From NCBI GenBank assembly GCA_023128935.1, contig JAGMDA010000001.1:1-60160 (forward strand): DNA of 60,160 bases, in the 5' to 3' direction. The stretch is from Candidatus Eiseniibacteriota bacterium (GTDB taxonomy: Bacteria; Eisenbacteria; RBG-16-71-46; CAIMUX01; WJJG01). The notes beneath the pieces are model-generated. The model did no database searches and had not been told where the DNA came from. It saw nothing but the letters and a program-made list of their open reading frames with translations. Position numbers and translations under genes: made by a program. Below, in pieces: positions 44,641 to 51,130 of the stretch; the stretch's first letter is position 1, and the number at the start of each line of letters is the position of its first letter.

Positions 44641-45050
44641 GACGACAACCCTGTGACGTGAAGCCGGTAGCCATGCCCCGACAGTCCCCCGTCAACGTAG
44701 AAGGTGTGCCCTCGGTAGGAGATTTGCACTCCCAGAGGAAGCACCTCAAGCAGCGCGTCGTCCAAGACTGCCTGTTCCGTATGGTTCGGATTCTGGTGGT
44801 TGGCCGACACCGACCGCCAAAGACGGCGGTAGAGGAGGGCATCCACGGCCTCCATCGGCGATAGGTTTTCTTTCCCTACTGTGTCAGGCCTGGAGTCGCA
44901 CCAGGTTCGAGCTTTGTCTAGGGACTTGATCACCCTGTGCAAGCTGATAGCGTTATCCAGGATTTTCACCAACGCCTTTCTCCTGGATCCGCGTTCGTTC
45001 ACCCAGATCGCGGTCGCCCACTCTTGCAAAATTCGTTCTTGGTTTTTCAT
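44637..45050 (-). CDS. Hypothetical protein, 137 aa
   Basis: GGGAGAAAG precedes the start, which lies 98 bases inside the Nmad1-like gene. Helical N-terminal half, beta-rich end (VQISYRGHTFYVDGGL). No family recognised. The large overlap is unusual, but both frames look protein-like. Confidence 0.6.
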   Translation of the reverse strand: MKNQERILQEWATAIWVNERGSRRKALVKILDNAISLHRVIKSLDKARTWCDSRPDTVGKENLSPMEAVDALLYRRLWRSVSANHQNPNHTEQAVLDDALLEVLPLGVQISYRGHTFYVDGGLSGHGYRLHVTGLSS

Positions 45051-45381
45051 TGTCTTTCTCCCTTTCTCTGGCTAGCTTCTGATCCACCACGGTGGCCAGC
45101 CCATATCCGGCGATGTCAAGCCAGGGGGACTCGGAGTCCTTCCAGGCGTCTCCGGCGTCTGTGTGGCCATGCTGATTGGCCAGGCGGAATAGCTTGTCGA
45201 GCACTCTGATCATCGTCGCTATCTCGCTGTATGCCGCAACTGGAATGCCAGTAGGGTAGAACGCAGCGAGAAAGATACCCGTTGACGCTAGGTTGTTTCC
45301 GTAGGCCTGGCGCTTCTCCTTGAGCGTCTCGATTAACGCCCCTCCCACCTTCTCGTACGCCTCGAATTCGCGCTCAAACAC
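44953..45381 (-). CDS. Nmad1/DUF1599-like protein
   Basis: 142 residues. KRQAYGNNLASTG, a helix with IATMIRVLDKLFRLANQ, and SPWLDIAGYGLATVV match the pattern of nucleotide-modification-associated domain 1 (all-helical, often beside base-modification genes in phages). Possibly binds or trims nucleotides. The C-terminal ~35 residues overlap the next gene and are low-complexity charged. Assignment is by pattern only. Confidence 0.6.
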   Translation of the reverse strand: MFEREFEAYEKVGGALIETLKEKRQAYGNNLASTGIFLAAFYPTGIPVAAYSEIATMIRVLDKLFRLANQHGHTDAGDAWKDSESPWLDIAGYGLATVVDQKLAREREKDNEKPRTNFARVGDRDLGERTRIQEKGVGENPG

Positions 45382-45820
45382 CGGTCTTTTCCTCGTCCAC
45401 TCGCTCGATCGTCAGGGCATATCCGGCGTTGCCTTGGCGACGCCGGAGATGGAAGTTGTAGCCATTGTGGGCTACCCACACTCCAGCGGGAAACTTGCCA
45501 ACGGGACCGAGGGTGGCTAGCATCTCTCTGCTTAGCTTGTCGCACTCGGTCTGGCGAGCGGCTTCTTCACCTGCCCAGATACCCAAGACCTTCTCCGCTT
45601 CGATGTAGGCTCGCGGAGAGCTCATCTCACTAGGTAGGCTAGGAGTAATCAGCCTCCACGCTTTGAGGTCCTTCAGCAGCGAACGACGACGCTGATACAG
45701 AACCAGACATTTGGCCAGAGCCTGCTCGATGAACAACACGGCGTTCTCGTCGTCCTTGTTCCAGGTGTCCTGCACCAGCTGGTCTAGCTCTTCCTTCTCG
45801 TAAACTTGTGATAGTCTCAT
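45374..45820 (-). CDS. Hypothetical protein, 148 aa
   Basis: Helical N-terminal ~100 residues with E/D/K-rich helices, then a short beta part (AGVWVAHNGYNFHLRRRQG). Start at 45820 chosen over an upstream in-frame start that lies in the rhomboid gene spacer. Overlaps the Nmad1-like gene by eight bases. No family recognised. Confidence 0.6.
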   Translation of the reverse strand: MRLSQVYEKEELDQLVQDTWNKDDENAVLFIEQALAKCLVLYQRRRSLLKDLKAWRLITPSLPSEMSSPRAYIEAEKVLGIWAGEEAARQTECDKLSREMLATLGPVGKFPAGVWVAHNGYNFHLRRRQGNAGYALTIERVDEEKTGV

Positions 45821-45830
45821 GCTCCGCCTC

Positions 45831-46415
45831 CTATGCGGGTGCGATAAGTGATTCGAGTGCGCTTGCACAACGATCGGCCAGCGTTCCCCACGCTAGCCCC
45901 AAGATAAGCCCAAACAGATGAGCTAGGTTGAGCGGCAGGACCGAAATCGCCAGCCAGACGGCTAGAATAAAGGCCGAGCCGAAATTCTTTCTCCGCAGGC
46001 TTGTGGCCAGACTGACAGCAGCCAAGGCGAACATCGTGCCGGATGCGCCAATGAGCGTCCGACCACAGCAGGATACCGCACAAGCTACCCAGACGCTAGC
46101 GAAGAGGAAGAACACGCAGAAATCGTGGTGCCCGACCTGAATTTCGTAGAGTGCTCCCAGGAGCACCAGGAAGGGCAGGTTGCACCACAGGTGGCCAGCG
46201 CTCACGTGCCAGAACGGTCCGGCCACCAGCATCAGCGGGCCAGACGGACGGGGCAGCAGGTAGAACAAAGCTGCCAGCAGTACCCCGAAACTCAGCGATA
46301 GCCAGGGGAGTCGCCCCACGGGCGGCCTCCGGGGCCATCTTGAGGGGCTGAGCGGCGGTTGATGCGGAAGGCCGAGCGCCAGTTGGCGGGACGGCGACGG
46401 GTGACGTGAGGTCAT
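45831..46415 (-). CDS. Rhomboid-family intramembrane serine protease
   Basis: 194 residues with about six membrane segments. Rhomboid hallmarks in order: WHVSAGHLWCNLPFL, the catalytic IGASGTMFAL (serine in GASG), and NLAHLFGLILGLAWG with the catalytic histidine. The start at 46415 overlaps the stop of the WGEML paralogue by ATGA. Very unusual in a phage; it could clip host membrane proteins during infection. All key residues are present. Confidence 0.87.
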   Translation of the reverse strand: MTSRHPSPSRQLALGLPHQPPLSPSRWPRRPPVGRLPWLSLSFGVLLAALFYLLPRPSGPLMLVAGPFWHVSAGHLWCNLPFLVLLGALYEIQVGHHDFCVFFLFASVWVACAVSCCGRTLIGASGTMFALAAVSLATSLRRKNFGSAFILAVWLAISVLPLNLAHLFGLILGLAWGTLADRCASALESLIAPA

Positions 46416-46603
46416 GAGTAGACTCCCTGCAACATAGCCAGCATCTCTCCCCAAGAGCGGAATCCGTCGTCGGCGGGGTGCTGAGCCATATAGCTGGCAT
46501 GGCGGGCTTGTACCGCCTCGACCTTGGCTAGCGTTTTGTGAAGGTCACCGGCTAGGCCCAAGATATCTCGTTCCAGTTCCTGTCGTTCAGTTTGCTTTTC
46601 CAT
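46412..46603 (-). CDS. Small WGEML-motif paralogue, copy 3
   Basis: 63 residues: LERDIL, then YMAQHPADDGFRSWGEMLAML. Same arrangement as the genes at 6962 and 9397, 40 kb away on the other strand. Its stop overlaps the rhomboid start, so the two are translationally coupled. This again places the motif beside a protease. Confidence 0.75.
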   Translation of the reverse strand: MEKQTERQELERDILGLAGDLHKTLAKVEAVQARHASYMAQHPADDGFRSWGEMLAMLQGVYS

Positions 46604-46883
46604 TTCCCTCCTCCTTGAGAGGCATGGCTACCCAGGGAGAATCAGCCGGAAGGCTGAGCCCCTTCAGCATCTTGGCAAAATGGCAGAAGTGAAAGACCGA
46701 GGAAATGACCCGGAACAGTGCTCTTCCCTCGTGCTTCTCCTCGCATGCCGCGTCGTAGTCGGTGAAGACCTTGATGCGTCCCTCGCCGTCTCGTACCGCG
46801 CTAGTTGCGTAGCCAATCTTCCGCGACGTAGGTACGTCCTCGTAGACCAGCCAGCAAAGCTTCCATCCGTCAATCTTGTGCAT
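46587..46883 (-). CDS. Hypothetical protein, 98 aa
   Basis: Basic start, DGWKLCWLVYEDVPTSRK, and a middle part YDAACEEKHEGRALFRV that might form a small alpha/beta fold. Strong GGAGAAGAAG ribosome site. It lies between the M41-like gene and the WGEML gene, overlapping both. No family recognised. Confidence 0.65.
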   Translation of the reverse strand: MHKIDGWKLCWLVYEDVPTSRKIGYATSAVRDGEGRIKVFTDYDAACEEKHEGRALFRVISSVFHFCHFAKMLKGLSLPADSPWVAMPLKEEGNGKAN

Positions 46884-47319
46884 CTTCTTCTCCTTGGTCC
46901 ACGGCGATCAGGCGGGCGGCTAGTCTCTCGACTTCGCCCCAGTGCAGCTTCAGGTTGTCCACTGCCACACCGAAAGGGGCGACCAGCCTCTCGATTTCTA
47001 CGCCGGCCTCGACCAAGTCGGCAATATCGGAGAAGGCCATCCACATCCCCAGATAGTCAAGATACAAATCGGCGTCCAAGTCCCCGTGAACTGCCCATGC
47101 CGCAAATCCCCCAAGCCGGAACAGGAGGACGTGCTCGGCACAGGTAAACCCTCCGGGGCACCGACAGCGGGCTGGCGAAAGGCTGACCTCGATAGGTGCT
47201 GTGTAATCGCAAACCTCTCTAGCCATAACCGCATGGCCGGCCTCATGGATGGCCGTGTAGTAGAGCATCTTGTCGGGGCTCGTTATGCTCAGGCTCTCGT
47301 CAGTTCCCTTGTACTTCAT
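46870..47319 (-). CDS. Stand-alone M41-like (HEAGH) peptidase domain
   Basis: 149 residues from the ATG at 47319. YYTAIHEAGHAVMARE has HEAGH at 25-29 as in the FtsH peptidase domain, and a later MAFSDIADLVEAG could give the acidic third ligand. It has no AAA+ domain or membrane anchor. Either a stand-alone zinc peptidase or a regulator that mimics FtsH substrate handling. It directly follows ribozyme-like element 1. Confidence 0.75.
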   Translation of the reverse strand: MKYKGTDESLSITSPDKMLYYTAIHEAGHAVMAREVCDYTAPIEVSLSPARCRCPGGFTCAEHVLLFRLGGFAAWAVHGDLDADLYLDYLGMWMAFSDIADLVEAGVEIERLVAPFGVAVDNLKLHWGEVERLAARLIAVDQGEEDAQD

Positions 47320-47339
47320 CTCGCTCTCTCCTTCGGGTG

Positions 47340-47415
47340 AGCGCTTCATCGGTGGGGCATTTCCCCAGACCAAGGTAATCGCCGGTAGCCTCGGTTTTCC
47401 CTTGGTTTCTGCGCT
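47340..47415 (-). ncRNA. Hammerhead-like self-cleaving element, type II, copy 1
   Basis: Minus-strand RNA with three stems: closing stem AGCGC/GCGCT, stem III CCAAGG/CCTTGG after GAAA, then GTC, stem I TGGGG-AAATG-CCCCA, then CCGATGA. This is the strand order of a type II hammerhead. Predicted cut is 3' of GTC (between 47368 and 47367). Departures: C instead of U at the usual CUGA position and an A-A mismatch beside the closing stem. It covers almost the whole gap between two genes. Confidence 0.68.
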
Positions 47416-47638
47416 AGTCTCGCCTGGGCTTCCTGTAGACCGTCAGGTTGAGCTTCAGGTCTCGATCGCCGACCGGCCTTGCGCCACCGGTGGTAGCCAG
47501 CACAAGCGTTTTGCCACTGCTCGACGGCTGGACGTTGACGACCTCTTCGTCTAGCTGAATCCGGATCGTCATGACACCATCCAAGATATCGATGTCAACG
47601 TTATCGTAGCGGGAAATCTTCTTTCCTGTCTCACTCAT
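47414..47638 (-). CDS. Hypothetical protein, 74 aa
   Basis: Start at 47638 behind GGAGGGAC. Beta-rich: DVDIDILDGVMTIRIQLDEEV and a closing KLNLTVYRK. Shape fits a small beta-sandwich or OB-like fold. Its stop codon lies in the 5' strand of the ribozyme closing stem. Confidence 0.65.
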   Translation of the reverse strand: MSETGKKISRYDNVDIDILDGVMTIRIQLDEEVVNVQPSSSGKTLVLATTGGARPVGDRDLKLNLTVYRKPRRD

Positions 47639-47918
47639 CTGTTTGTCCCTCCTCAGGGTTGCGGTGTCTCTCCAGAACCTCGTCCAACCGGACCTGGAGA
47701 GCAATGGCATGCGACGTCACGATGTTCGCCACCAGACCTTCCTGCAGATCAGCGAACTGGCATAAGCGATCGATACCGTCTTGCACCTCGGCTGCCCTAG
47801 ACTCGACGTAGTCAGCCCAGGCCTTGTTGCAGCGGCCTATCCTCTCCAGGTGCATGAGGAGGATTTCGGGATCGTTCATCGGGTTGGCCGGGAGTGTTCC
47901 CTTCGTCATCGGTCTCAT
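47631..47918 (-). CDS. Hypothetical helical protein, 95 aa
   Basis: GGAGAGGAG upstream of the ATG. Helical throughout (NKAWADYVESRAAEVQDGIDRL...), acidic end. Overlaps the next gene by eight bases. No family recognised. Confidence 0.6.
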   Translation of the reverse strand: MRPMTKGTLPANPMNDPEILLMHLERIGRCNKAWADYVESRAAEVQDGIDRLCQFADLQEGLVANIVTSHAIALQVRLDEVLERHRNPEEGQTDE

Positions 47919-47930
47919 TTCTCCTCTCCT

Positions 47931-48884
47931 CTAGGGTGTGTAGGTGATGCCGCAGGAGGCGCAAGTCACCTGCTCGAAGCGGGAGTTCCAGGCGAGGCGA
48001 TCCATGTCGCATTCGCCACAGTCGACGCACTCGCATCCCTCAGGGCATCTCTGGCCTTCGGGAGTCCGCTGGCGTTTCATTCGCCTCTCCGTGTCGGTTG
48101 CTGCCAATCCCCTATCCTTCTCCTTCAACTGGGGTAGGGGTTTCTCGGTGTAGGGGCTCAGCGCGTCCTTGATATCCCGCACCAGCCTGTTCCAGGGATC
48201 GAATCCGGCGAGAGCGTCGTTGACAGCGCCTTTGACCATCTCGGCGATTTCGTCGTCAATGACCTCTCGCTCTTCCTCCGGCGTCGGGGCGTCGGCTTCA
48301 AGCTCCTGCTCTGCCCAGTAAGCGTCGCTGTAAGGCTCGCGGTCCATCTCGTCCTGCTCGACGATTTCCCTGGCCTCTGCCTTGGTCGGAAAGCGATCTG
48401 CCAGCTCCCGCTCGATTGCGGCCAGTCGGTCCAGCTCCGCGTATGCTGCCTGCTGCTGCGCCAAGAAGCTATCGGCGGTCTCGTCGCGGTCGGGGTTGAA
48501 GGGGTCGTTCTCAATCTCAATCTTGACCTCGGCCAGTCGGCCCAGCTCTGCGTATGCCACTCGCACTTGGTCGGGGAGGTTCTTGGCATCTTCCTCTGCT
48601 CTCTCGGCCAAGAATCTGTCCATGCCCTGCCAGGCGTCATCCTCGGTCAGTTCCTCATCGGAAAATCCGGCGTCTTCCTCAGCCTCTCGTTCCAGGCAGG
48701 TGTCCACGTGCTCCCTGCAGGCAACAATCGCCTGTGCCTCGAACAGGTAGCCTCGGATCTCTGCATGCTTCTCGGCGTCGTTCATCGGGGCCAGCTCGTC
48801 TGCGATCCAGTCGCAGGTCGCTCTGTTCTCGCACTCCCTGCACTTGCTAGGTGCGAAGGGTGCTTCTCTCTTGTGCGCTTTCAT
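47931..48884 (-). CDS. Large acidic protein with cysteine clusters at both ends
   Basis: 317 residues from the ATG at 48884. N-terminal CRECENRATC, a very long acidic helical middle with repeated AYAELxRLAxIE segments (two similar blocks near 125-180), and a C-terminal CPEGCECVDCGECDMD...CASC cluster. Both ends could bind zinc. Might bridge other proteins or nucleic acid. No family recognised. Confidence 0.65.
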   Translation of the reverse strand: MKAHKREAPFAPSKCRECENRATCDWIADELAPMNDAEKHAEIRGYLFEAQAIVACREHVDTCLEREAEEDAGFSDEELTEDDAWQGMDRFLAERAEEDAKNLPDQVRVAYAELGRLAEVKIEIENDPFNPDRDETADSFLAQQQAAYAELDRLAAIERELADRFPTKAEAREIVEQDEMDREPYSDAYWAEQELEADAPTPEEEREVIDDEIAEMVKGAVNDALAGFDPWNRLVRDIKDALSPYTEKPLPQLKEKDRGLAATDTERRMKRQRTPEGQRCPEGCECVDCGECDMDRLAWNSRFEQVTCASCGITYTP

Positions 48885-49231
48885 CGTTTCCCTCCTTCGG
48901 GGTTTGTGACCTCGCGCCATTCTCTAGAGCGAGGGTACCACTTCCATCGTCGCAGAATCTCGTACGGTCCGCAGTCCCAGTTGGGGACTTTCCGATATTC
49001 GTTCGAGCCGGAGATTCTGGACTGCCAGAACCCTCGGACGATCTCGGTTCGCCGGACCAGGCCGACCTCGTGTCCTCGCTTCGCGCCAATCTCTCTGGCA
49101 TATTCCGCTGTCGGGGTTTCTTCTCTCCAGAACCCGATGACGACCACTCGAGATCCATCGAGCTGCTCAGCGAAGTGTTCCACCTCGAAGGTCGAGCCTA
49201 TCTCAAGCTTTCTCTCCCCTTTGCTCTTCAT
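48881..49231 (-). CDS. Hypothetical protein, 116 aa
   Basis: Basic, beta/alpha pattern: IGSTFEVEHFAEQLDGSRVVVIGF then GCxP-like loops and aromatic WKWYPRSREW near the end. Coupled by ATGA to the acidic Cys-cluster gene. No family recognised. Confidence 0.65.
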   Translation of the reverse strand: MKSKGERKLEIGSTFEVEHFAEQLDGSRVVVIGFWREETPTAEYAREIGAKRGHEVGLVRRTEIVRGFWQSRISGSNEYRKVPNWDCGPYEILRRWKWYPRSREWREVTNPEGGKR

Positions 49232-49260
49232 TGCCTTTCCCTCTCCGTTTTAGTCGATTC

Positions 49261-49302
49261 CTGCCCTCTGACCCTCAGCTTGCACCGAGGGGCAGAAGGC
49301 AG
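49261..49302 (-). promoter_or_regulatory. Long interrupted hairpin in intergenic gap
   Basis: CTGCC-TCTG-CCCTC pairs with GAGGG-CAGA-GGCAG with single mismatches and a 10-base loop. In the 115-base gap between two minus-strand genes. No T-run; probably an RNA processing or stabilising element. Confidence 0.45.
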
Positions 49303-49346
49303 CTATCGAGCGCCCCGAAACACTCGGTAGCCACCCAATCGGAAGG

Positions 49347-50651
49347 CTATCTATTCCCCCGCTTATACCTCGTGTAGCTCTCTAGCTGCTCACCATAGCT
49401 CCGGTGGCTATCGTACAGCACTGGGGCTTCGTTCCAGACCAATCTGCCTTCCGGCATCTCCGGCATCTCGACCTCAACCTGCTCCAGCCGGTGACGAGCC
49501 TTTTCGTAGAGCTCCGCCAACTCGGTGGCCTCAGATTCGATCTCGTCCTTCAGGTCCGCCAGGGTGTCTTCTATGCGGGAGTGCAGCTCCGCCATTCTCT
49601 CTAGCATCTCTTCGCCGAGGACTTCCTCTCGCTTTGCTTCCAGCATGCCTTCCAGTTTTCTCTTGGCCTGCCTAGCCTTGCTGGCTATGTCCGCGTCGTG
49701 GTACCGCAGGATGGCCTTCTCGACCAGTCGCTTGAGCTGACCAGGGTGAAGGGCTTCCAGGGCATCCAGCTCGACTGCTCCGCCACCGTGGGCGTCCTCG
49801 AATTTCGCTCTCCGCAGTTCCGTCTCCTTGATCGGTGTGCGGGGAAGGTTGTACTTCCGCACCTGCTCGCCGGTCAGCATGAGGGGTTCGAGCTTCACAT
49901 CTCGGTCTTGGTCTTGGACGAGGAACTCGATCTTCCGAGCTACGCTCACTGGCATGCCATATCCGGCTGGATCGAAGTCGGCGATGTAGAAGATTCTCAC
50001 CGGTCGATCCGCCTCCGCCATTCGCTTGACCAGCTGCACCACGGCGGTGATGCTCAGTTCGCCGAGCCCTGCTACGAGGTTGATATCGTAGCGTCGGCAT
50101 AGCGGCTTGAGGACGTCGTGCATCGTGGATTTCTCAGCCCAGACTTCGACGTGGTAGGGCTGAGGGTTCTTGTCGTATCCCTGAACAGTGAAGTCGGGAG
50201 GTTCCGCCAGGGTGGGCATCTGCAGCTCGAATTCGTTGCCTTCGACGTGGTATCCGGGGTCCCTTCCCCACATGTAGCCTGCGTAGATGATCGGTGGCGG
50301 GTTTCGCCTGTCCTCGAAGGCCTCGTGGTCGACGTATCCGAGGTATCGGGCGATTTTCGCTGCTTGCACCAGGTAGAGCCAAGCCGACTTGGTGTTCTCG
50401 TAGGGCTTGCCGTCTGGCCTGGTCGGGGCGGGGTCCTGCGATACGAGCTGGTAGTGGATTCGGCGGAGGTGCACGCCAGATGTGTAGCCGAACTTTTTCC
50501 ACCAGCCAGCGAACCACTCGGCCTTCTCGATGTCTCCGGGGCTTCCGGCCATGAAGGGGTCATTCTTGACCGCTAGGGCTGAGAGGTCGCTAAGCTTCAG
50601 TCCTCGCTCTTTGGCGAGCGTCTTCATTTCCTCTCTGAATCGGGTTGTCAT
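49347..50651 (-). CDS. TOPRIM protein related to Spo11/TopoVI-A
   Basis: 434 residues. A TOPRIM-like core: VEVWAEKSTMHDVLKPL (acidic start), LGELSITAVVQLV, then IFYIADFDPAGYGM with the DxD pair, as in TopoVI-A/Spo11 and RNase M5 families. N-terminal ~120 residues could be a helical DNA-binding part (LRRIHYQLV), and the C-terminal ~100 are coiled coil. The catalytic tyrosine helix is not obvious. May cut, nick or process DNA. Its message would begin with the ribozyme-cut end of copy 2. Confidence 0.75.
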   Translation of the reverse strand: MTTRFREEMKTLAKERGLKLSDLSALAVKNDPFMAGSPGDIEKAEWFAGWWKKFGYTSGVHLRRIHYQLVSQDPAPTRPDGKPYENTKSAWLYLVQAAKIARYLGYVDHEAFEDRRNPPPIIYAGYMWGRDPGYHVEGNEFELQMPTLAEPPDFTVQGYDKNPQPYHVEVWAEKSTMHDVLKPLCRRYDINLVAGLGELSITAVVQLVKRMAEADRPVRIFYIADFDPAGYGMPVSVARKIEFLVQDQDRDVKLEPLMLTGEQVRKYNLPRTPIKETELRRAKFEDAHGGGAVELDALEALHPGQLKRLVEKAILRYHDADIASKARQAKRKLEGMLEAKREEVLGEEMLERMAELHSRIEDTLADLKDEIESEATELAELYEKARHRLEQVEVEMPEMPEGRLVWNEAPVLYDSHRSYGEQLESYTRYKRGNR

Positions 50652-50752: not shown

Positions 50753-51130
50753 TCAGTCCAGCAGTTCGTTGGCTAGGTCCAAGGCCCTGCCTAGCCTGTA
50801 GTAGACGCCGTTGACTCCGGCAATTGCGTCTCTGACCTTCGGTTCGGGGCCACTCTCGACGGCATCCGCCAGGATCTCCATCGCTGTGGTCAGCTCGCCA
50901 GTTTCTGCGAAAGCCGCTTTGACTCTGCGAGCCATCTTGCTCGGCGGCGTCATGTTGGCCACCTCTCCTCGGTTGAACTTGGCCAGTTCCTCTGCCCTCT
51001 CGGCCTTGCGGATCATCAGCTCCGTCTCGGCTTCGTAGGCCCTTGCCGCTCTTTCCTCCGCTCTCGACCCGGCGATGTGCACCTGGCCGAATCGCCTGAG
51101 TTCATCGGCAATTCTTGTTGTCTCGTTCAT
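50753..51130 (-). CDS. Hypothetical helical protein, 125 aa
   Basis: All-helical pattern with repeated E/A/R helices; central NMTPPSKMARRVKAAFAETG. Could be a small DNA-associated protein. Its stop is three bases before ribozyme-like element 2. No family recognised. Confidence 0.6.
   Translation of the reverse strand: MNETTRIADELRRFGQVHIAGSRAEERAARAYEAETELMIRKAERAEELAKFNRGEVANMTPPSKMARRVKAAFAETGELTTAMEILADAVESGPEPKVRDAIAGVNGVYYRLGRALDLANELLD

Follow-up and report, generated by a model that had tools for sequence, protein, structure and literature searches.

Duplicated type II hammerhead-like RNAs with a variant core in a putative minus-strand operon of a tailed phage

Two 76-nt elements, HH1 and HH2, located between minus-strand genes of a tailed phage, are likely to represent one duplicated self-cleaving RNA of type II hammerhead architecture whose core departs from the consensus; they would split the message of a phage operon. 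The window, i.e., the whole stretch of DNA analysed, is a single contig of 60,160 bases (G000:C1) whose recognisable protein families comprise terminase, portal, head, tail, DNA polymerase and topoisomerase, alongside three tRNA genes. Judged from sequence, the type II architecture appears well supported, as the topology is exact, the core letters agree at all positions but position 4, and compensatory changes spare the core; the pair is probably active as ribozymes. The core combination, the covarying duplicate and the conserved distal domain of stem III are new; that phage hammerheads can flank gene blocks is known from the available portions of PMC3088659.

The two elements, their parts and the adjoining genes are the following:

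51130 to 50753, minus strand: gene before HH2, 125 amino acids (open reading frame)
50749 to 50674, minus strand: HH2, second 76-nt copy, predicted cut 50702/50701 (descriptor scan, blastn, fold, alignment)
50733 to 50710, minus strand: HH2 distal stem III domain (pattern shared with HH1 47376-47399)
50686 to 50680, minus strand: HH2 core CCGAUGA (sequence)
50667 to 50661, minus strand: ribosome site GAAGGAG downstream of HH2 (sequence)
50651 to 49347, minus strand: gene after HH2, 434 amino acids, phage DNA topoisomerase family (PHROG 6247, E 5.1e-32)
47638 to 47414, minus strand: gene before HH1, 74 amino acids (open reading frame)
47415 to 47340, minus strand: HH1, type II hammerhead-like element of 76 nt (topology, fold, descriptor scan, shuffles, covariation with HH2)
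47415 to 47411, minus strand: HH1 stem II, 5' strand AGCGC (sequence, fold)
47410 to 47406, minus strand: HH1 A11.1 (mismatched), G12-A13-A14 and A15.1 (sequence)
47406 to 47369, minus strand: HH1 stem III arm (fold, covariation, match to the distal-consensus pattern)
47368 to 47367, minus strand: HH1 predicted cleavage site, C17 (47368) / U1.1 (47367), from hammerhead topology
47367 to 47353, minus strand: HH1 stem I hairpin UGGGG AAAUG CCCCA (sequence, fold)
47352 to 47346, minus strand: HH1 core CCGAUGA with C at position 4 (sequence; the consensus is CUGANGA)
47344 to 47340, minus strand: HH1 stem II, 3' strand GCGCU (sequence, fold)
47334 to 47328, minus strand: ribosome site GAAGGAG downstream of HH1 (sequence)
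47319 to 46870, minus strand: gene after HH1, 149 amino acids, M41-like, HEXXH motif (HEAGH) (Peptidase_M41 match below cut-off)

Architecture, covariation and chance

From the 5' end, HH1 is composed of AGCGC (stem II), a single A, GAA and A-CCAAGG (stem III), leading to a 24-nt distal part. It continues with CCTTGG-T, a C, the predicted cut, TGGGG AAATG CCCCA (stem I), CCGATGA, an unpaired A (A10.1, 47345) and GCGCT, which closes stem II. Residue numbers (A11.1, G12, A15.1 and so on) follow the hammerhead convention. Stem III is a 7-bp helix (47400-47406 with 47369-47375) that includes the base pair A15.1-U16.1, beyond which lies the distal domain (47376-47399). This is the strand order of a type II hammerhead, as claimed in the original prediction, whose HH1 coordinates (47340-47415, minus strand, 76 nt) are exact to the base and whose cut position, 47368/47367, agrees with the site predicted here. 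Both copies exhibit the three-helix order stem II, stem III hairpin, stem I hairpin, stem II, and both carry GAAA...UC, that is, GAA followed by the A15.1-U16.1 pair and H17. Taken alone, an 85-nt piece containing HH1 folds as a three-way junction (MFE -28.0 kcal/mol, z -1.93), with 8 of 200 shuffles folding equally well; HH2 folds alike (-27.4 kcal/mol, z -3.23), and none of its 200 shuffles does so.

HH1 and HH2 are identical at 64 of 76 positions, and all 12 differences fall within the stem III arm, leaving the core, stem I, loop I and stem II unchanged. The stem III arm has no role in the contact between stems I and II of hammerheads. Ten of the differences form five fully compensatory base-pair changes, four in stem III and one in a distal 3-bp stem, while the remaining two fall in loops of the distal part. 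Both copies preserve all 20 pairs (40/40 cells paired), and sliding the registers by 1-3 yields zero pairs changed on both sides. The shuffle control of the covariation tool equals the observed score in 13 of 500 cases, for an alignment of two sequences, which is few. Since all five of the five replacements are consistent with pairing, they constitute direct evidence that an RNA fold is maintained, and as structured RNAs the two copies appear well supported.

A descriptor allowing any base at core position 4, a mismatch beside stem II and stems of at least 4 finds the arrangement only at HH1 and HH2 in the window, the same two places returned by blastn across the whole genome. Over 1500 dinucleotide shuffles of the window it produces 47 hits (16 type II, 20 type III, 11 type I), none with stems of at least 5/5/7, the strength of HH1 and HH2. 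For type II with stems of at least 4, ~0.011 are expected per window (16 in 1500) versus the two observed, which count as one event because the copies are related. The arrangement is far beyond chance. A structured RNA or a DNA inverted-repeat signal unrelated to hammerheads, with a junction resembling the core by accident, is for this reason highly improbable: topology, junction lengths and core letters agree jointly, as compared to 47 weaker hits of any type in the shuffles. What speaks for such an origin is the lack of any Rfam hammerhead match and of homologues elsewhere, to which the third section returns.

Core departures and known hammerheads

Both departures named in the original prediction are present in HH1 and HH2. 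The core reads CCGAUGA instead of CUGANGA, differing at position 4 and agreeing at the other letters, and an A·A occupies positions 10.1/11.1 at the base of stem II, where a pair is found in hammerheads, usually G-C. In the majority of type II hammerheads, moreover, at least 4 pairs join loop I to the tail that follows stem II. By eye, and judged by Watson-Crick contacts, loop I can form here only two pairs with that tail, UG/CA.

The change at position 4 has precedents. According to the available portions of PMC3088659, U4C considerably lowers activity in vitro, yet suffices in vivo for viroid infectivity. The excerpts of PMC9608096 describe a viroid-like RNA of which four sequenced variants carry CCGA in place of CUGA in the (-) ribozyme, and state that, in a variant of a peach viroid, this substitution left self-cleavage unaffected. 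In the parts available, both papers cite one source for C4, Ambros and Flores 1998, and give it different weight. In an MS2-based selection against hammerhead cleavage (PMC4075628, in the sections accessible), position-4 changes are absent among the inactivating ones, an absence that its author relates to the C variant already known. In the hammerhead of PMC9901934, as its excerpt reports, activity is low when the CUGA turn is altered in other ways. For positions 10.1/11.1, a natural U·U mismatch is recorded (PMC3088659, section 8), and no precedent for A·A was found in the literature searched. The caution of the original prediction about activity is fair. The A·A still gives genuine cause for doubt; the substitution of C for U is less harmful than that prediction feared, since natural viroid-like hammerheads with C4 cleave, as the accessible text of PMC9608096 and PMC3088659 indicates.

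Folding in longer transcripts affects the two copies differently. When the transcript extends no more than 15 nt beyond stem II, this stem forms with a probability of at least 0.98 in both. With at least 18 nt past stem II, that of HH1 falls to 0.16 and then 0.05, due to a competing hairpin, GCGCUC/GAGAGCG, around the ribosome site (window 47320-47346), part of which it covers; stem II of HH2 stays above 0.92. Embedded in 261 nt of sequence, the elements have mean pair probabilities of 0.53 (HH1) and 0.72 (HH2) over their 20 pairs. Because stem II of HH1 loses once the downstream bases are transcribed, cutting there would have to be fast, or the hairpin may limit it.

This competing fold, the joint occurrence of two core departures and the apparent absence of the standard loop I pseudoknot would all fit a hammerhead-derived RNA that is catalytically dead or nearly so, retained as a folded spacer to protect the ends of messages or to influence the structure of the ribosome site. 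Some core-variant hammerheads are indeed inactive when tested, and among the inactive hammerhead-like RNAs listed in the available part of PMC3088659, six differ at more than one position. Under a constraint on pairing alone, conversely, the unpaired core should drift, and none of the 12 changes falls in the core or in alignment columns 48-83. C4 itself has active precedents (PMC3088659 and PMC9608096, as far as their available text goes). A dead or nearly dead RNA is considered unlikely, and cleaving hammerheads are preferred.

The closest known systems are the type II hammerheads of bacteria and prophages (Perreault et al. 2011, PMC3088659; RF02276). HH1 and HH2 share with them closed stems I and III and an open stem II, the positions of GAAA and of UC and the cut, and an intergenic location; several copies flank gene blocks in phage DNA there as well, with a proposed function in processing long phage messages. 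They differ from them by C4, by the A·A at 10.1/11.1, by the apparent lack of the four-pair loop I pseudoknot, by the conserved distal stem III domain and by the absence of a match to the Rfam model. The hammerhead of phage Bcep176 is likewise intergenic with one core letter changed; by our own reading (L061:12168-12238), it exhibits the type II order and a 5-nt loop I ending in AUG. Unlike HH1 and HH2, it varies at position 6 (A6C) and has a canonical 10.1-11.1 pair, and one copy was read. Perreault et al. measured for this A6C hammerhead a k_obs below 0.1 per min (PMC3088659). The U-to-C change at position 4 is shared with the CCGA hammerheads of viroids and viroid-like RNAs (a peach latent mosaic viroid variant; the CtaHVd-LR1 minus strand), which retain cleavage according to the excerpts of PMC9608096. 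These belong to RNA replicons, in which the ribozyme makes unit-length genomes, and their C4 is a population variant, whereas in the phage it is fixed in two copies.

Rfam models and relatives of the phage

The covariance-model search proposed as a check in the original prediction yields no match: on the window or on 101-base pieces, Rfam lists no hammerhead at any threshold used, from the gathering score to an E of 10, and RF02276 has zero matches in the genome. A control indicates how weak this null is, as the published Bcep176 hammerhead (A6C), with its single core change, is also unlisted by Rfam at E up to 10. Since Rfam misses this core variant, its silence at HH1 and HH2 carries little weight and lends little to an accidental resemblance to hammerheads. 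For PaP3, Rfam listed no hammerhead either; a hammerhead element was located by reading in Bcep176, not in PaP3. The Bcep176 case also suggests that core-variant hammerheads are probably under-annotated. Over 47 genomes, RF02276 gives five matches below cut-off (loci L062-L066), in which the descriptor finds no consensus-core hammerhead; a relaxed scan returns one weak row, in L064.

No copy of the element was found outside the contig in phylum genomes, phage records, viral contigs or genome contigs. A model built from the two copies and run over 47 genomes of the phylum matches in the phage's own genome only; over 44 loci it gives a single hit (E 0.53). The descriptor, applied to 55 loci (647,088 bases), returns five weak rows, zero resembling the element. 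Blastn of the element in phage records yields zero matches. In plasmids, 50 records matched; the best 20 of the 50 align over 42 of 93 bases with an E of 9, and one of the 50 was counted at 99% identity or more. These plasmid matches were set aside as chance. Pattern matching in viral contigs returned 10 loci, five of them copies of one sequence, and none has three stems by eye; one locus, L003, scores 22.3 bits (E 0.0022) against the two-copy model. It was set aside because the pattern that selected it derived from that same model and because it is missing from the descriptor's output. Further patterns gave 0 matches in viral contigs and 0 in genome contigs.

The sole relative found is a viral contig encoding a topoisomerase-like protein 71% identical to that of the phage, returned by the alignment query and by the neighbour-gene query alike. 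The topoisomerase-like protein has zero relatives in 46 other genomes and zero in genome contigs, and the M41-like protein has zero in viral contigs; an alignment search with the polymerase gave 43 loci, of which 42 are distant. The relative holds homologues of window genes 47631, 46587, 45374 and 44953 in altered order around the topoisomerase-like gene, and no M41-like homologue in the stretches examined. Between window 44953-50651 and L015 9005-12855, gene order is rearranged and five genes share 54-72% protein identity. The relative carries no element before the topoisomerase gene or between the 47631 and 46587 homologues; the elements are therefore gains in this phage or losses in the other, at gene-order breakpoints.

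Gene context, proposed action and distal domain

Each element is followed by GAAGGAG and then ATG. HH1 overlaps the upstream stop codon TAG (47414-47416), its first two bases being the last two of the codon, and fills most of the gap between this TAG and the ATG at 47319. At HH2, 3 nt separate the upstream stop codon (50753-50755) from the start of the element. The match of the 149-residue protein to Peptidase_M41 (E 0.023, 15 bits) is below the cut-off of 29.9; the protein, which bears the HEAGH motif, is possibly a small phage metalloprotease. An intrinsic terminator was rejected as a reading of the elements, none being listed on the minus strand at either site. A promoter scan of 42.5-52.6 kb found 4 versus 2.3 expected, without a clear excess, which neither supports nor excludes one long transcript.

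In the proposed action, HH1 and HH2 would be transcribed inside a minus-strand operon, and each would cleave the growing transcript after its C17 (47368; 50702), a short distance before a ribosome site. A middle piece of ~3.3 kb would hold the topoisomerase-like gene and four smaller genes, and the next piece would start before the M41-like gene. The ribosome sites would stay intact, so that the M41-like gene would keep its own on the downstream message, as had been predicted and as is correct by position. By geometry, the stem III hairpin and a 2',3'-cyclic phosphate would terminate the upstream pieces, and the downstream pieces would begin with a 5'-OH and the stem I hairpin; such hairpin ends could shield the pieces from nucleases and uncouple the expression of the segments. 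This message-splitting role follows the proposal of Perreault et al.: in the available portions of PMC3088659, clustered prophage hammerheads flank gene blocks, message processing is proposed, and three tandem arrangements cut in vitro.

The distal stem III domain may add a level of control. Hammerheads do not need the distal part of stem III. Both distal domains fit GAAAANCGANGCTACCGNCGANTA, which has 2 matches in the window versus 0.01 expected, the two copies themselves. Changes affect 2 of the 18 unpaired distal positions and 8 of the 14 positions in the adjoining helix (Fisher p 0.008), a comparison selected after the data were seen and between pairs and loops that need not drift equally. 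Conservation of a dispensable part hints at a further function, or simply at a recent duplication. A regulated ribozyme, in which the distal domain or the ribosome-site hairpin switches cutting, is compatible with message splitting; the slow change of the distal positions, the restriction of their consensus to the two copies and the competing fold would agree with it. The comparison is limited to two copies, and the competing fold is clear in HH1 only; such regulation is judged improbable. Given slightly less credence still is a natural regulated pair whose distal domain senses a ligand, a protein or a phage RNA, with a core weakened by C4 and A·A so that cutting depends on it. Were this true, the phage would set the ratio of intact to split message by means of a natural hammerhead switch.

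If HH1 and HH2 cut, a C4 found in print only for viroid-like RNAs would be fixed twice in a DNA phage, which would indicate how much change the hammerhead core tolerates and the reason such cases escape current models. If they do not, a ribozyme fold would be kept for another reason. The covarying copies around one gene block offer a clean system for studying the effects of phage hammerheads on messages, which the available text of PMC3088659 leaves unclear.

The tail CACCC(C)GAAGGAG, considered as a part of the ribozyme, was rejected, as related ribosome-site motifs precede other genes of the phage. The exact sequence CCCNGANGGAGGG occurs 5 times versus 2.5 expected, not clearly above chance. 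A motif like ACCC(C/T)GA(A)GGAGGG is found at several ribosome sites on the minus strand (51662, 51145, 50671, 48902, 47658, 47337, 38556), in which CCC could pair with the GGG around the Shine-Dalgarno bases.
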